64,000 bases of DNA from Halorientalis salina. GTDB taxonomy: Archaea > Halobacteriota > Halobacteria > Halobacteriales > Haloarculaceae. The stretch covers positions 186,001 through 250,000 of the forward strand of contig NZ_SOSC01000004.1 of NCBI RefSeq assembly GCF_005049285.1, read 5' to 3'. Shown here piece by piece: positions 3,751 to 18,537 of the stretch (its first letter is position 1; every line of letters begins with the position of its first letter). The position numbers and the translations under genes were made by a program. The notes beneath the pieces are model-generated. The model saw nothing but the letters and a program-made list of their open reading frames with translations. It had not been told where the DNA came from and made no database searches.

Positions 3751-5751
3751 TTACTCGTCGCGGGCGTCGGTGAGGTCCTGCATCCCCTCTTCGATGGTCT
3801 TGGCCTGGTCGAACTGCGACTGGGCGGCGTCGGTGATGGCCTCGATTTCGTCGGCGACGTTGCGTGCCTGGGTGGCCGTCTGGTCGATCATGGCGGCGAC
3901 CTCCTCGGTGCTGGACGCCTGGTCGTCCGTGGCGTCGGCGACCTCCTCGATGCCCTCGGCCGTCTTCTGGGCAGCGGCGACGACGTCGTCGAGTTTCTCC
4001 AGGATGGCTTCGACGCGGTCGACGCCCTCGCCGATGCGCTGGCCGGTGTCCGCCAGACTCTCGGCCGTGTCCGCGGTGTCGGCCTGGACGCTTTCGACGA
4101 GGGCTTCGATTTCGGCGGCCTGGGTCTGGGACTCCTCGGCGAGTTGCTTGACCTCCTCGGCGACGACGGCGAACCCCTCGCCGGCCTCGCCCGCGCGGGC
4201 GGCCTCGATGGAGGCGTTCAGCGCGAGGATGTTCGTCTGCTCGGCGATGTCGTCGATGATGTCCACGATGTCGCCGATCTCCGCGACGGCATCCTGGAGG
4301 TCCTCGACCTTGGTGAGCATCCCCTGGCGGTCGTCGTCGAGTTGCTCCATCAGGTCGCGGGCCTCCCCGGCGGCCGCACGGCCGTCGTCGGCCAGCGAGG
4401 CGGCATCACGGCTGGTCGTGCGAACCTCGTCGGCACTGGCAGCGACCTCCTCGATGGAGGCGCTCATGTTCGACACCTCGTCGGCCACCTGCTGGACGTC
4501 GTCGCGTTGCGTCTCGGCGAGGTCGGAGATCTCCTCGCTCCCCTCGGCGACGGCCTGGGTCGCCTGGCGAAGTTCTGCGATGGCCGTTTCGATCTGTGCT
4601 GCGGTCTCCCGCCTGCGTTCGAGTTCCGCTTCCTGTCGGCGGATGTCTGTGATGTCCTGGATGATCGTCGTCCCGCCTACGAGCGCACCGTGGTCGTCGT
4701 ACAGCGGGACGCTCGAGAGGACGACGTCGCGCCGTTCGTCGTCGTGGGTCAGGAGTTCGAGTTCCCGTTCGCGGATCGGCTCCTCGCTTTCCAGGACGAG
4801 TTCCAGCATCGTCGTCTTCGTGTCGTGGGTCTCGTCAGTCCGGTACACCTCCCACAGCGACAGCTCGCGGGCTTCCGCCTCGGTGAGTCCCGTCAACTCC
4901 TCCATCGCCTCGTTGTACAGGAGGATCTCCCCCTCACGGTCGAGGACGATGACTGGCTGGAGCAGCTCCTCCAGGGCGTCGACCCAGATCTGCTCGCCCG
5001 ACTGGAGGTACGCGTCCATCGCGACCTGCAGATCGAGGTTCGTGATCCGGAGGAACGACTGGAGTTGCCCACGGGTTTCCTCGACGGCCGCGGTGGCGTC
5101 GTCGGCCTCGGCCACCTCGTCCGCGAGCCGGTCGAACAGTTCGTCGACGATCAGCCCGTGATAGTGGTTGTACATGCCGATGTACTGCTTGGGCGGCATG
5201 TCCAGGCGCTCGTGTAACTTCCCGATGACTGCGCGCTGGCGGAAGTACTCGTGTCCGTAGCCGGGATCACCGTTGGGCGCGTACGGGTGGTCGCCCAGGC
5301 TCAGCATGTATCGACGCTGCGTCCATTCGAGTTCCTCGACCGACCGATCCGACCGGTCGAGCACTGACTGGGTCTGGTCGTACTGACCGAGGTGGTCGTA
5401 GAAGTACGTGGCGACGTCGTCCGCAATGTCCTCGAGCAACGGCGTCATGTCCGCCAGCCGGTCGACGTCCGCGTCGTCGAAGCCGACGAACTCCTTTCGC
5501 CAGTCGATCTCGGCCGGGTCGAGACCCAGCGACGACAGCAGTTGCTCCTCGTCGATTTCCGCCCGGAGGCCGACCTCGTCCAGTGACTCGTCCCCGCCTG
5601 CTGGTGGTGTCACGCGACCGCCGTCCGGGGTCGGCGGTCCACGAACGACTGTGTCGTGATCGCTACGCTCCTCGGACTCCGTCGGCCGTATCCGGTCCCT
5701 GCCTCGCCACCGACGGTCGAGTGCCGACCGGATTTCCTCAAGGTATGTCAT
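3751..5751 (-). CDS. globin-coupled PAS chemotaxis transducer (HemAT-like)
   Basis: A soluble 666-residue methyl-accepting transducer without membrane segments or HAMP. Domains in order: a disordered N-terminus, a protoglobin sensor (about 65-245) with the proximal-His region [20 protein letters not shown], a PAS domain (about 255-375), a coiled coil, then the MCP signalling domain with the CheA/CheW-binding hairpin [20 protein letters not shown]. Haem-bound oxygen is the known HemAT ligand; the added PAS may sense redox or a second ligand. The second HemAT in this window, at 25151, lacks PAS. TATA-like sequences lie at about 5757-5767 and 5806-5818; the first would be too close for the ATG at 5751, so the second is preferred. 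Confidence 0.9.
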
Positions 5752-5985
5752 CGTTGAAATATAGTAACCAGCCTGACAATCTGGGTATGAACTCGGCGAG
5801 TATCCTACGTATATCTACCGGAATTTGCCCCCGTCGACGACGGCACCGGCGAGCGACACGCTGTGGTTGGCGTGCGTCGACGTGTTCGGCTGGCGGCAGT
5901 GGCGGTCGGGGGCGCGGCGTCACCAGGTGCAAACAGCAACTTTATCACCCGCAGGCGGCGAAAGGACGATAAGATTACTTCCGAA

Positions 5986-7218
5986 ATGACTGACGAACAC
6001 CGACAACCGGAGGTGAACATCGGACTCGTGGGCCACGTCGACCACGGCAAGACGACGCTGGTGCAGGCCCTCTCAGGGGAGTGGACCGACCAGCACTCCG
6101 AGGAGATGAAACGCGGGATCTCGATCCGCCTCGGCTACGCCGACGCGACGTTCCGAGAGTGCCCCGATATGGAGGAGCCAGCCCGGTACACCGTCGAGGA
6201 GGAGTGTCCGGACGGCTCCCCGAGCGAACCGCTCCGGACTGTGTCGTTCGTCGACGCACCCGGCCACGAGACGCTGATGGCGACGATGCTTTCGGGTGCC
6301 TCGCTGATGGACGGCGCGGTACTGGTCGTCAGTGCCAGCGAACCCGTCCCGCAGGCACAGACCGAAGAGCACCTGATGGCGCTCGACATCATCGGCATCG
6401 ACAACATCGTCATCGCCCAGAACAAGATCGACCTGGTCGACCGCGACCAGGCCGCCGACAACTACGAGCAGATCCAGGAGTTCGTGTCCGGTACTGTGGC
6501 CGAAGGCGCACCCATCGTCCCCGTGTCCGCCCAGCAGGGCGTCAACATGGACGTGCTCATCAACGCCATCGAAGAGGAGATCCCGACGCCCGACCGGGAC
6601 CCCGAGCAGGACGCTCGGATGCACGTCGCCCGGAGCTTCGACATCAACCGCCCCGGCACCACGTGGGACTCGCTGATGGGCGGCGTCCTCGGTGGCAGTC
6701 TCACCCGGGGACGGCTCCACGAGGACGACGACATCGAACTCCGCCCCGGCCGCGAGGTCGAGGAGGGCGGCCAGACCGAGTGGCGCTCCGTCGAGACGAC
6801 CGTCCGGTCGATCCAGGCCGGCGGCGAGAACGTCGAGGAGGCCTCGCCCGGTGGATTGCTCGGCGTCGGGACGGGACTGGATCCGTCGCTGACGAAGGGC
6901 GACGCGCTCGCGGGGCAGGTCGCCGGCCCGCCCGGGTCCCTGCCGGCGGTTCACGAGGAGTTCACGATGGACGTGGAACTGCTCGAACGCATCGTCGGTG
7001 ACGTCGAGGAGGAGGTCGAGGAGATCTCCACCGGCGAACCGCTGATGCTGACGGTCGGCACGGCCACGACGGTCGGGTCGGTCACGAGCGCGCGCTCCGG
7101 CGAGTGCGAGGTCGCGCTGAAGCGGCCGGTCTGCGCCGAGGACGGGGCCAAGATCGCCATCAACCGCCGGGTCGGCGCGCGCTGGCGGCTCATCGGCGTC
7201 GGTACGCTCCGGGAATGA
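5986..7218 (+). CDS. eif2g: translation initiation factor aIF2 subunit gamma
   Basis: A 410-residue GTPase core of the archaeal aIF2 ternary complex, which carries Met-tRNAi to the small ribosomal subunit. G1 is GHVDHGKT, G3 DAPGHE, G4 NKID and G5 VSAQQG; the beta-barrel domains II and III follow. The segment between G1 and G3 contains CPDM and EECPDG cysteines, the remnant of the zinc knuckle seen in this family. The ATG at 5986 is chosen because the family starts just before [12 protein letters not shown]; a TATA box CTTTATCAC lies at about 5938-5947. The stop overlaps the next start in ATGA, the head of a conserved operon. Confidence 0.97.
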
Positions 7219-13742: not shown

Positions 13743-13848
13743 TGGAACGGTACCAACCAGCTCTGTCGGGAGGCGTCGCGGGACGGACGTTTCGTTCGGG
13801 GAGCTGCGACCGACCGATTCTTAGGCTCCCACGGCATAGCGGCGGGTG

Positions 13849-14877
13849 ATGGAGAGCCCCCTCTGGACGACCGAACACGCGCCGGACATCGACGACCTCC
13901 CGCAGTCGGAGGTTCGCGAGTCGCTGTGGGGGGCCGTCGAGGAGCCGATGAACCTGGTCGTCCACGGGCCGAAAGGCAGCGGGAAGACCGCCGCCGTCCG
14001 GGCGCTCGCCCGGGAGACCCACGCGGACCCGGACAACGACTTCGTCGAGATCAACGTCTCCGACTTCTTTGGGATGACGAAGAAGGAACTGAGCGAGGAC
14101 CCTCGCTTCGAGTCCTTCATCACGCCGAAACGCAAGCGTGAGTCCTCGAAAGCCGATCTCATCAACCACGTCCTGAAGGAGTCGGCCAGTTACGCGCCGG
14201 TGTCGGGGGAGTACAAGACGGTGCTGCTGGACAACGCGGAGGGCATTCGCGAGGACTTCCAGCAGGCGCTCCGTCGCGTGATGGAGCAGTATTACGAGAC
14301 GACGCAGTTCGTCATCGCGACGCGTCAACCCTCCGCGCTCATCCCGCCGATCCGCTCGCGGTGTTTCCCGGTCCCGATGCGCGCGCCGACACACGAGGAG
14401 ACCGTCGCGGTGCTCCGCGACGTCGTCGAGGCCGAGGACGCCGACCACGACGACGACGGACTGGAGTACGTCGCCGGCTACGCCGACGGCGACCTCCGGA
14501 AGGCGCTGCTCGGTGCCCAGACCACCTTCGAGCAGGAGGGTGCGGTCACGATGGAGGCGGCTTACGAGGCGCTTGGCGAGGTCGGCGTCGACGACCGCAT
14601 CGAGGAGATGTTAGACGACGCCGAGGCCGGCGAGTTCACGGACGCGCGGAAGACGCTCGACGACCTGCTCGTCGAGGAGGGGTTCAGCGGCGAGGAGGTG
14701 CTGGCGGACGTGCTCCGGATCGCCGGGTCGCGGTACGACGCCGACCGGATGGCTCGGCTCCACCGACTCGCCGGCGAGATCGACATGGACATCAAGGAGG
14801 GGACGAGCGACCGGATCCACGTGAGCCACCTGTTGTCGAACCTCGCTGGCGGCGAAATCCCCGCGAGTCAGGAGTAG
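13849..14877 (+). CDS. rfcC: replication factor C small-subunit paralogue (RfcC)
   Basis: A 342-residue clamp-loader AAA+ subunit. Walker A is GPKGSGKT (about 44-51), the arginine finger SRC is present in PPIRSRCFP, and a C-terminal collar domain follows. The Walker B motif reads VLLDNAEG rather than the usual LDEAD, so the catalytic Glu is replaced by Asn. Haloarchaea carry two small-subunit paralogues; this looks like the one that contributes an arginine finger but may hydrolyse ATP poorly (inference). ATG at 13849 is preferred over GTG at 13846; a TTCTTAGG element sits 27 nt upstream. Its last 10 nt overlap the convergent kinase gene. Confidence 0.88.
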   Translation: MESPLWTTEHAPDIDDLPQSEVRESLWGAVEEPMNLVVHGPKGSGKTAAVRALARETHADPDNDFVEINVSDFFGMTKKELSEDPRFESFITPKRKRESSKADLINHVLKESASYAPVSGEYKTVLLDNAEGIREDFQQALRRVMEQYYETTQFVIATRQPSALIPPIRSRCFPVPMRAPTHEETVAVLRDVVEAEDADHDDDGLEYVAGYADGDLRKALLGAQTTFEQEGAVTMEAAYEALGEVGVDDRIEEMLDDAEAGEFTDARKTLDDLLVEEGFSGEEVLADVLRIAGSRYDADRMARLHRLAGEIDMDIKEGTSDRIHVSHLLSNLAGGEIPASQE

Positions 14878-17204
14878 ACCTCGGTGAACTCGAAGCGCGC
14901 GCCGCCGGACTCGCGCCGCTCGTCCGCCGACTCCCCGCTCGCGTCGCTCGCGGGGACGCCGCCGGCCTCGGTGACGGTCACGGCCCAGCCGTGTGCGGTG
15001 GCGATTTCTTCGACCATCGCGAGCCCGAAGCCGGTGCCGTCGCTTTCGTTCGAGTAGCCCATCTCGAAGACGTGGTCGCGTTCGCTCTCCGGAATCCCGG
15101 GCCCGTCGTCTTCGACGTAGAAGCCGCCACCGCCGTCGAGGAGGCCGACGCGGACGGTGACCTCGGGGCCGCCGTGTTCGACGCTGTTGCGGTAGAGGTT
15201 CTCGAAGATCTGCAGAAGGCGGTCGTGATCTGCCTTGATGATCTCGTCTGCGTCGACCCGGAGGGTCGCCGTCTCGTGGTCGACGCTGTCCCAGGCTCGC
15301 CGCGCGACCGCATCGAGCGAGATCAGTTCGAGGTTTGGGGTGGTCTGACCCTGCTTTGCGAACGCGAGCACGTCCTCGATGAGGCGGTTCATACGGTGGA
15401 GACTTCCCTCGGCCGCCCCGAGGTGTTCGTCGAGATCGCCGGTCTCGCGGGCGGCTTCGATCCGGGAGAGGGCGACCTGGAGGGGATTGCGCAGGTCGTG
15501 GGAGACGAGGCTCGCGAACTGGTCGAGCCGTTCGTTCTTCGCTTCGAGTTCCTGCTCGCGGCGCTTGAGGTCCGTGATGTCGTCGATGAGACCGACGACT
15601 TTCTGGACCGTGCCGTCGGGTTCACGGACCGGGTAGGCGTCGGCCTCGACCCAGCGAACCTCGCCGTCGGGTCGCCGGATGCGGTACTCGATGTGGTAGC
15701 TGTCGTCGCAGTCCTCGTGGTCGAAGACAGTCGATAGCCAGGCACGCAGTTCGGTGCGGTCATCGGGGTGGGCGGTGTCGACGTACGCCCACAGCTCGTC
15801 GCCGAACTCCGCTTTGGTCCGACCGGTCACCTCCTCGAACCCCGGACTGAGATACAGGAGTTCCTCGCCCGTCGCGTCCGCCATCCAGATGATCTCGTGG
15901 ACGCTGTCGGCGATCTGCCGGAACCGCTGTTCGCTCTCTGAAAGCTCGCGTTCGCGCTCGATGCGGTCGAGTGCCGTCCGGGCGCTGTCGGCCAGCAGTG
16001 TGACGAGCGTCCCGGTCCGGTCGTCGAAGGGACCGACTGCAGTCGAGCCGACGACGATCACGCCGTGGTCACCGACCGGGACGGAGACGCCCGCTCGCAG
16101 TTCGGTCTCCTCGAATCCCGGCGACGTCCGGATGTCGTCGAAGTGGACGGCGCCGCCGCTCTCGAACGCCTGACCGATGCTGTTGCTGTCGTCGGCGGGA
16201 ACCGTCGGCAACGGCGTTCCCACGGCAGTCTCGTCGAGGGACTGTGCGACCGGTTCGAGGGGGCCGTCGGGCTCGGACTGGAGGTAGACGGCGACGCCGG
16301 AGAGGCCCAAGCGGTCCGTGGCCGTCTCGACGATCCGCTGGCTCACCTCGGTTTCGCCCGTGGCGTCGAAAAGCGCCCGGGACGCCGCGTGGAGCGACTG
16401 GAGGGTGTTCTCGAACCAGCGCCGGTCGGTGACGTCGCGCATGATGACGACGGCGTCGTCGCTGGCCGGCGCTTCGAGGGTGCTGATCTTGATCTCGGCG
16501 TAGCGACGGCTCCCGTCCGGCGTCTCGTAGGATATCTCCGTCGTCTCGACTGCCTGGCCGTCCAGCTGTCGGTCGACCTGATCGCCGATCGTCTCGGCCG
16601 TCGACGAGGAAAACGACGTGAGCGATTCCAGTCTCGTCTCGAGGACCGGGTCCCGATCGGTCTCGAACCGCTCGCAGAACGCGTCGTTGACGTACTGGAT
16701 CTCGTGGGCCGCCGAGAGGACGAGCACGGGGTCGGGCGTCGCGTCGAACAGCGTCCGGAACCGCTCCTGTGACTGTTCGAGCCGACCGGCGAGTCGCTGG
16801 GAGAGACGTCGCCGTTCGAGCAGGTTCTCCAGTCGCCGGTAGAGGACGGATTTCTCGACCGGGACCGACACGATCTCGTCGATGACGTACAGGCCGTCGA
16901 TGTCCGTCCAGTCCGCCGGATCGAGTCGCTCGCTCGGCGGCTCGCGGCTGACGAGGACGACCGGGACGAACACCGGATGGGTCCGCTCTTTGTGGTCGAC
17001 CAGCCACTCGCGGTGGCGGACGAACGACGCCGGGTCGACGATACACATGTCGAACGGGTCGTCACCGGTGCCGACCCCGACCTCGTAGCTCTCGGACAGC
17101 CAGTCGGCCAACAGCTCCCGGTTGCGGTCGTCGTCGACGAGCAGTCGTACCCGTGTGGCGGGTGAGGTGTCTCCCGGCAGCGCTCCGTCGTCTGGGCCGT
17201 TCAT
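14868..17204 (-). CDS. sensor histidine kinase, receiver-PAS-GAF-PAS-HisKA-HATPase
   Basis: A cytoplasmic 778-residue kinase. Domains: a degenerate receiver-like domain (about 19-135, VRLLVDDDRNRELLADWL), PAS (140-260), GAF (270-420), PAS (425-545), HisKA with H-box FASLVSHDLRNPLQ, and HATPase with N-box NLYRNSVEHGG, VEDDGPGIP and GTGFGLAMV. No membrane segment is seen. Near the C-terminus PASDASGES is encoded by a palindromic insert at 14933-14955. The start ATG overlaps the stop of a short KaiC-like ORF in ATGA, so translation is coupled to it. The partner response regulator is not adjacent. Confidence 0.92.
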   Translation of the reverse strand: MNGPDDGALPGDTSPATRVRLLVDDDRNRELLADWLSESYEVGVGTGDDPFDMCIVDPASFVRHREWLVDHKERTHPVFVPVVLVSREPPSERLDPADWTDIDGLYVIDEIVSVPVEKSVLYRRLENLLERRRLSQRLAGRLEQSQERFRTLFDATPDPVLVLSAAHEIQYVNDAFCERFETDRDPVLETRLESLTSFSSSTAETIGDQVDRQLDGQAVETTEISYETPDGSRRYAEIKISTLEAPASDDAVVIMRDVTDRRWFENTLQSLHAASRALFDATGETEVSQRIVETATDRLGLSGVAVYLQSEPDGPLEPVAQSLDETAVGTPLPTVPADDSNSIGQAFESGGAVHFDDIRTSPGFEETELRAGVSVPVGDHGVIVVGSTAVGPFDDRTGTLVTLLADSARTALDRIERERELSESEQRFRQIADSVHEIIWMADATGEELLYLSPGFEEVTGRTKAEFGDELWAYVDTAHPDDRTELRAWLSTVFDHEDCDDSYHIEYRIRRPDGEVRWVEADAYPVREPDGTVQKVVGLIDDITDLKRREQELEAKNERLDQFASLVSHDLRNPLQVALSRIEAARETGDLDEHLGAAEGSLHRMNRLIEDVLAFAKQGQTTPNLELISLDAVARRAWDSVDHETATLRVDADEIIKADHDRLLQIFENLYRNSVEHGGPEVTVRVGLLDGGGGFYVEDDGPGIPESERDHVFEMGYSNESDGTGFGLAMVEEIATAHGWAVTVTEAGGVPASDASGESADERRESGGARFEFTEVYS
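14933..14955. repeat. palindromic insert in kinase 3' end
   Basis: CCCCGC (14933-14938) and GCGGGG (14950-14955) form a perfect 6-bp inverted repeat around an 11-nt centre. On the minus strand the unit reads in frame as PASDASGES, just before the last strand of the HATPase domain. The core is nearly the same as the repeat inside kae1-bud32 at 10962-10993. Confidence 0.6.
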
Positions 17205-17371
17205 CGGCGTTCGTCGCTGCCGTCCGTCAGAAAGTGAAACCCCAGAACCGTTTTACCAGTCCCCGGCGGGCCGTGAACCGGATCGTTCCGGCCCTCGATG
17301 AACCCACCGCGAATGATCTCGTCGAGACCGTCAACACCCGACGACACGCGGTCCAGAGAACGATCAGCCAT
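17201..17371 (-). pseudogene. KaiC/RadA-type ATPase N-terminal fragment (56 codons)
   Basis: A 56-codon ORF encodes the first part of a KaiC-like ATPase: DRVSSGVDGLDEIIRGGF, then EGRNDPVHGPPGTGKTVLGF with an intact Walker A, then HFLTDGSDERR and a stop. Full KaiC-like proteins run for more than 220 residues; Walker B and the rest of the fold are absent. The ATG at 17371 lies 30 nt from a TATA-like element (17397-17406) and the TGA overlaps the ATG of the kinase gene. The simplest reading is an internal deletion that joined the 5' part to the natural 3' junction. It could still act as a leader ORF for the kinase. Confidence 0.75.
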
Positions 17372-17396: not shown

Positions 17397-17406
17397 AGTA
17401 TGTATC
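17397..17406 (-). promoter_or_regulatory. TATA-like element before KaiC fragment and kinase
   Basis: GATACATACT on the minus strand, centred 30 nt before the ATG at 17371. There is no better element between the fragment and the kinase gene, so both are probably transcribed from here. Confidence 0.45.
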
Positions 17407-17508
17407 TTCCCCCGCGATTTCAGGCCGTGATATTCGGTGGCGGGAAGCGGGACGAACGTCTACTTGCGTCGGGAAACTGCGCGCATTCGGGACGGAAACG
17501 GCCGCGGA

Positions 17509-18537
17509 TCACCCGGTTCGTTCCAGAACGAGGACGTATCTGGTCAGCGAGCGGTGGACGCGGCGCTCGAACCGGTCGGTCACCGTCCACCCGGCGTCGC
17601 TGGCCGCGTCGGCCCAGGATCGGTCGGCGACGACGACTGCCCGCGGTGCCACGCGGCGGGCCTCGGCGAGCGCGCCGGCGACGAGCGAGTCCAGGTCGCG
17701 GTTGGCGATCTTCGACTGCCGACCGTACGGGGCGTCGAAGACGACCGCATCGGCCCCGTCGGCCGGCAGGGGGAGTGCCGTCGCGTCCCCCTGTGCGGTG
17801 TGGTACCGGCCCGGCTCGGGGAGCCCGTCGGGCGTCGAGCCGTCGAGGAGATGCGAGAGGTTCCGGGCGGCACCGCGGGCCATCTTGGTCTGGGCGTCGA
17901 GGCCCAGTACGTCGGCCCCGACCAGGCCGGCCTCGGCGAGGACGCCGCCGGTGCCACACATCGGGTCGACGATCAGTCGGCCGGGCCGTGCGCCGGCCAC
18001 GTTCGCGAGCGCGCGCGCCAGCAGCGGGTCCATGCTTCCGGGCTGGAAGAAGGGCCGGTCGGTGGGCTGGCGGGTGCCGAAGTCCCGGACGCTCTCGACG
18101 GCGAGCCAGCCGAGCGCGCACAGATCGCTGGCAAAGGCCGCCTGCAACACGTGGTCGGGGGCCTCCAGGTCGACGGTGAACCCGCGGTCGACGAGCACCT
18201 GGCCGAGTTCGCGCTCGGCGGTCTGGGTGTCGATATCGGTCGATCCGCGAACGTCGCGTGCGCGCACGGCCACCGACCCCGACCGCTCGATGGTCGCCGC
18301 GTCGAGCAACGCCCGGGCGCTGGCCACGTCCGGGTCCGTGCGGCCCAGGAGCTCGCTGGCCCGGTGGGTGTAGGCCAGTCCGCGGACGCGCTCGGTCACG
18401 CCGCGTGCGGTCGCCAGGCCGGGGGCGACGACGGACACGTCGGTCGCGGCGCTCGCCGCCTCCCGCGCCGCGAAGGCGTCGTCCTCGCCGCCGAGTTCCA
18501 GCAGGTACACGCCCGCAGTTGGCCGCTTGACCGACAT
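17509..18537 (-). CDS. tRNA (guanine10-N2)-methyltransferase, THUMP type
   Basis: A 342-residue Trm-G10/Trm11-like enzyme that methylates N2 of G10 in tRNA using SAM. The N-terminal part (about 1-140) corresponds to the THUMP-containing RNA-binding region. The Rossmann methyltransferase has motif I VDPMCGTGGVLAEAG and catalytic motif IV as FDAPYGR, where the usual DPPYG is DAPYG. The gap to the KaiC fragment (17372-17508) shows only the TATA-like element above. A TTTATG box near 18571 could drive this gene. Confidence 0.85.
   Translation of the reverse strand: MSVKRPTAGVYLLELGGEDDAFAAREAASAATDVSVVAPGLATARGVTERVRGLAYTHRASELLGRTDPDVASARALLDAATIERSGSVAVRARDVRGSTDIDTQTAERELGQVLVDRGFTVDLEAPDHVLQAAFASDLCALGWLAVESVRDFGTRQPTDRPFFQPGSMDPLLARALANVAGARPGRLIVDPMCGTGGVLAEAGLVGADVLGLDAQTKMARGAARNLSHLLDGSTPDGLPEPGRYHTAQGDATALPLPADGADAVVFDAPYGRQSKIANRDLDSLVAGALAEARRVAPRAVVVADRSWADAASDAGWTVTDRFERRVHRSLTRYVLVLERTG

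Follow-up and report, generated by a model that had tools for sequence, protein, structure and literature searches.

A 56-codon KaiC gene remnant before a histidine kinase gene of Halorientalis salina and its probable role as a leader ORF

The short ORF that overlaps the start of a histidine kinase gene in Halorientalis salina is, judged by its sequence and by the arrangement in related genomes, the remnant of a two-domain KaiC gene that once formed a tightly coupled operon with the adjoining kinase. The locus was studied within a window of 64,000 nucleotides (the whole stretch of DNA that was analysed), and its features are listed in Table 1. Sequence and comparison establish the KaiC identity of the remnant (the stub), the syntenic intact relatives, the orthology of the kinase, an upstream motif in common and the loss of the KaiC body, and the case is well supported as a gene-loss event of a known kind. 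The combined reading, that the stub is a KaiC-gene remnant which arose by deletion and is most likely now a leader ORF for the kinase, is held with good confidence.

Table 1. Features of the stub and kinase locus, in positions of the window
Feature	Position	Strand	Evidence or remark
KaiC stub, 56 codons left of a two-domain KaiC gene (its first ~50 codons, Walker A included, and perhaps the end of its C-terminal tail)	17201..17371	-	PF06745 match; identity to G077 KaiC
Walker A stretch of the stub (HGPPGTGKT, codons 33-41)	17249..17275	-	sequence; alignment with 41 intact relatives
Putative deletion junction (codons 51-56)	17204..17221	-	judged from both termini of intact KaiC
ATGA stop/start overlap of stub and kinase	17201..17204	-	sequence; intact KaiC-kinase pairs similar
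Histidine kinase, 778 aa	14868..17204	-	Pfam; clade with other RFC-linked kinases
Candidate retained KaiC promoter region	17398..17432	-	upstream motif comparison
TATCAC	17427-17432	-	-61 before the stub start
AT-rich box GATACATAC	17398-17406	-	-35 to -27
Upstream flank, TIGR01177-family methyltransferase	17509..18537	-	NCBIfam; synteny anchor within the genus
Downstream convergent gene, replication factor C small subunit 2 (RfcB clamp loader)	13846..14877	+	NCBIfam NF009067, E 1e-145; synteny anchor

Translation of the minus strand from 17371 to 17201 yields the protein MADRSLDRVSSGVDGLDEIIRGGFIEGRNDPVHGPPGTGKTVLGFHFLTDGSDERR, followed by a stop codon. Residues 9-52 of the stub were matched to positions 1-44 of 231 of the Pfam model PF06745 (KaiC) at an E-value of 7.1e-12, and as this match lies above the curated cut-off it is not due to chance; NCBIfam KaiC models also matched the stub. 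Over 54 aa the stub is 57% identical to the N-terminus of the full-length KaiC found at the syntenic position in a genome of the same genus (G077). The N-terminal part of a KaiC-like ATPase domain, including Walker A (GPPGTGKT), is present, and the ORF ends just past the intact Walker A, so that a complete RecA-type domain is missing; Walker B, the catalytic Glu and the second domain are all absent. The earlier note on this DNA, made from the letters alone, had described 56 codons matching the opening of KaiC with a complete Walker A and nothing beyond it, and had read the stop codon as overlapping the kinase ATG; both descriptions were borne out, the TGA of the stub (17203-17201) overlapping the kinase ATG (17204-17202) to form ATGA. 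This is a stop/start overlap of the -4 nt type found in coupled gene pairs.

The kinase has, by Pfam, a receiver-like N-terminal domain followed by PAS, GAF, PAS, HisKA and HATPase domains. In the kinase tree it lies within a clade of kinases linked to replication factor C (RFC) genes, with support of 95/91, which includes kinases found behind intact KaiC genes; its receiver-like N-terminal domain closely resembles those of the KaiC-linked kinases in genomes G089, G091 and G092. The kinases of this genome (G000) and of G075, of the same genus, are sisters (100/99). The kinase of a Halorientalis MAG also falls inside the RFC-linked clade, and neither a KaiC nor an RFC gene was recognised in the ORF list of its locus. 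The kinase and RFC small subunit 2 genes converge with overlapping 3' ends (14868-14877), a convergent order that is kept in several genera.

The flanking genes allowed the same slot to be compared across eight genomes of the genus (G000 and G075-G081). One copy of the methyltransferase gene and the RFC small subunit 2 gene were found in 8/8 of these, neighbouring each other in all eight; the latter gene is also present in 138/146 genomes of the family. Between these two genes G077 carries a full-length KaiC and no kinase, G075 a kinase and no KaiC, and G000 the stub together with the kinase, while neither gene is present in the slots of G076, G078, G079, G080 and G081. Permissive tblastn revealed no KaiC relics in G075 or between the closely spaced flanking genes of the other genomes of the genus. 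In a tree of the two flanking proteins, in which the base of the genus had weak support, G000, G075 and G077 did not group together; this is compatible with an ancestor that had both genes and with several separate losses since. A small CxxC...CxxC zinc-ribbon-like ORF (MPLTEPTPDTDPYYECLDC...) fills the slot in three of the genomes that have neither KaiC nor kinase (loci L101, L102 and L104).

A full two-domain KaiC gene directly before the orthologous kinase, with the kinase facing the same RfcB gene, was found in seven Haloarculaceae genomes from three other genera (G019, G021 and G027; G089, G091 and G092; G003), and the RFC-linked KaiC genes of these genomes rank with the best matches that the G077 KaiC has within the family. 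An intact relative at the orthologous position therefore exists in the G077 slot as well as at seven KaiC-kinase-RFC loci, and the full-length gene that the earlier note had advised looking for was found at the same RFC-flanked locus. Its proposal that the kinase was once paired with a KaiC ATPase gains support from these loci, at which orthologous kinases sit directly behind full-length KaiC. The seven loci resemble the present one in the orthologous kinase, in the convergent RFC neighbour, in an overlapping or nearly overlapping junction and, G021 excepted, in the upstream motif; they differ in that KaiC is there a full protein of 480-500 aa, whereas here it is a stub of 56 codons. Junctions in intact KaiC-kinase pairs are ATGA (in G025 and G090, neither of them RFC-linked), TGATG (in G019, G091 and G092) or very short gaps, and because the intact pairs overlap or nearly do so, a tight KaiC-kinase junction is probably ancestral. 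Permissive tblastn gave no KaiC relic in front of the RFC-linked kinases that G065 and G063 carry, and when 392 genomes of the order were screened for further stubs (E <= 1e-14), every frame recovered was full-length. The family and order genomes searched yielded no orthologous locus that has this short ORF but lacks a long KaiC, an arrangement that would have spoken against a remnant.

Relative to the 486-codon KaiC of G077, ~430 codons (~1.3 kb) are missing from the stub. The missing KaiC body was absent when sought elsewhere in the genome, where the best other KaiC matches were <=37% identical. The last ~5 codons of the stub (SDERR and the stop) may represent the old KaiC C-terminus instead of N-terminal sequence, as read from their letters; KaiC proteins of intact relatives end in comparable short charged tails just before the kinase, the stub ending in GSDERR, that of G077 in GDDAERP and that of G090 in SPPDR, each directly before the stop. 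Since the letters of the tail allow both readings, the breakpoint was placed within about codons 51-56, and owing to the lack of conservation of KaiC C-terminal tails the exact junction and the frame of the deletion cannot be read. As the overlap of stop and start is still in frame, an in-frame deletion is the most economical explanation, and we infer a single event of this kind. One deletion of ~1.3 kb inside kaiC, probably in frame, would have fused codon ~51 to the last few codons and spared the KaiC promoter region, the start codon and the stop/start overlap with the kinase; the kinase survives without KaiC. Such a history, in which ~1.3 kb was lost inside kaiC and promoter, start and junction were kept, is considered very probable. 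The earlier note had likewise proposed an internal deletion leaving these three elements, and the syntenic intact KaiC and the common upstream motif support it.

A TATCAC or TATCAG motif was found at -57 to -68 in 8/9 upstream regions of RFC-linked KaiC genes or the stub, compared with 0/5 other KaiC controls. Shuffled sequences carried the motif in a mean of 0.14 of nine and reached eight in 0/4000 trials, a figure that overstates the significance because the motif was picked after viewing these sequences. An AT-rich box lies near -30 in several of the RFC-slot loci. The earlier note had placed the only TATA-like element in front of the fragment. The upstream region has a motif common to intact KaiC genes, but the nearest TATA-like sequence, TTTAAG at 5-10 bases before the stub ATG, is probably not the real element. 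It is too close for a transcript to start at that ATG, and the start would fall inside the stub. TATCAC together with GATACATAC is the better promoter candidate on the basis of motif and position, and the box would put the transcript start close to the stub ATG, the usual situation for leaderless mRNA in haloarchaea. The TATCAC/G motif recurs ~60 bases before the KaiC start across genera (at the window site and at L100, L106, L108, L113, L115, L151 and L152) and could be a regulator site.

The alignment with 41 intact relatives revealed three radical changes in the stub, Y30D, L31P and A50D, which are absent from all of them; as many outliers occur in only a few intact relatives, which are among the more divergent ones. 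Y30D and L31P are in the stretch just before Walker A, a placement which suggests that the stub has ceased to be maintained as an ATPase core. The GC3 of the stub is 0.65 compared with a mean of 0.87 for gene windows (bottom 3%), and several intact KaiC genes, too, have a GC3 below the average in this segment. Differences between stub and G077 number 10/5/21 of 43 at codon positions 1/2/3, a coding pattern. Taken together, the codon-position, outlier and GC3 data suggest that most of the divergence took place while the gene was whole, and that the deletion came fairly recently, possibly with some relaxation of constraint.

In the mechanism envisaged for the present locus, ribosomes would start at the stub ATG, end at its TGA and restart at the overlapping kinase ATG (termination-reinitiation). 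By analogy with coupled pairs, the stub probably acts in this way as a leader ORF for kinase translation, because stop and start overlap as ATGA, because no Shine-Dalgarno-like motif was found before the kinase ATG and because of what is known of coupling elsewhere: in Haloferax volcanii 9/9 overlapping pairs assayed were strictly coupled (PMC6728339), very short distances are needed for coupling and the final 15 nt of an upstream gene are enough in E. coli (PMC10666635). The locus shares with the archaeal termination-reinitiation pairs of these studies the ATGA overlap, the common strand and a haloarchaeal host. It differs in that the upstream gene is normally a whole protein, whereas the stub is a deletion remnant and the coupling here is predicted. 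Going further, the deletion may have turned the ATPase gene into a dedicated leader ORF of which selection keeps ~50 codons, promoter and junction to set the amount or timing of the kinase; this extension is tentative and rather unlikely. If it were true, the kinase would have become independent of its KaiC partner.

The main rival to the leader role accepts the same deletion history and regards the stub as an inert, decaying pseudogene remnant, open merely because the deletion is recent, with the kinase made from its own start by its own promoter or de novo initiation. This is possible, though not favoured. The low GC3 and the Y30D and L31P changes fit slow decay equally well and are a counterpoint to the leader role; A50D, likewise absent from the intact relatives, and the occurrence of the stub in a single genome among those searched agree with decay, and divergence mostly under coding constraint, as the codon-position differences indicate, is explained by a recent deletion. 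Yet the stub has kept its start, its frame and the exact ATGA overlap, the upstream motif has been retained, no Shine-Dalgarno-like motif was found before the kinase and overlaps of this type are as a rule coupled in Haloferax (PMC6728339). The intact Walker A and open frame could also point to a functional microprotein, such as a KaiC fragment acting on other KaiC proteins or on the kinase, but this is very unlikely given that Walker B, the catalytic Glu and the second domain are gone, that a charge and a proline have entered just before Walker A and that no such stub occurred in the other genomes searched.

Two other explanations were weighed. The genome is a draft of 23 contigs, and a true gene 1.3 kb longer might have been collapsed in assembly; this is highly improbable, as the stub lies inside a 291-kb contig, has radical substitutions of its own and is flanked in the same way as in relatives, and the missing part of KaiC is on no other contig. 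An independent N-terminal KaiC duplicate, or a chance fusion before the kinase, might be suspected from the best order-wide matches of the 56 residues, which include KaiC of other families (up to 65%) because so short a segment resolves kinship poorly. Such an origin is extremely unlikely: the stub lies between the same two genes and has the common promoter motif, resident KaiC genes occur in G077 and in the RFC-linked pairs, and no donor KaiC above 51% was found elsewhere in the genome.

Together with its relatives, this remnant of a resident KaiC gene, probably now a leader ORF, shows that haloarchaea have a conserved KaiC-histidine kinase-RfcB locus. A role as signalling hubs in archaea has been proposed for KaiC proteins (Makarova et al. 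2017, as cited in PMC5847659). In Haloferax volcanii the two-domain KaiC gene cirC lies next to a fixL gene (PMC3941300), and the gene layout is alike in that a double-Walker KaiC homologue adjoins a PAS-type (FixL-type) sensor; here, in contrast, the KaiC gene is cut to 56 codons and the kinase is intact. The products of overlapping gene pairs tend to be subunits of complexes (PMC10666635), which makes a direct KaiC-kinase interaction plausible in the intact loci. One genus offers natural genotypes (KaiC alone, kinase alone, stub with kinase, and neither) in which to ask which half needs the other, and the stub and its kinase illustrate that operon coupling can outlive the upstream gene.

Two further loci carried unusual KaiC frames. 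At L158 (G115) a 103-codon open frame (2462-2770) has a KaiC N-terminus with a broken Walker A (GEPGTEKT) and is apparently another KaiC relic; no kinase was detected in the 8 kb examined there. At L159 (G024), in another genus, a frameshift divides the KaiC gene directly before a histidine kinase into two frames that overlap (3859-5387 and 5326-6486), possibly a second decay of KaiC beside an intact kinase or a sequencing error.
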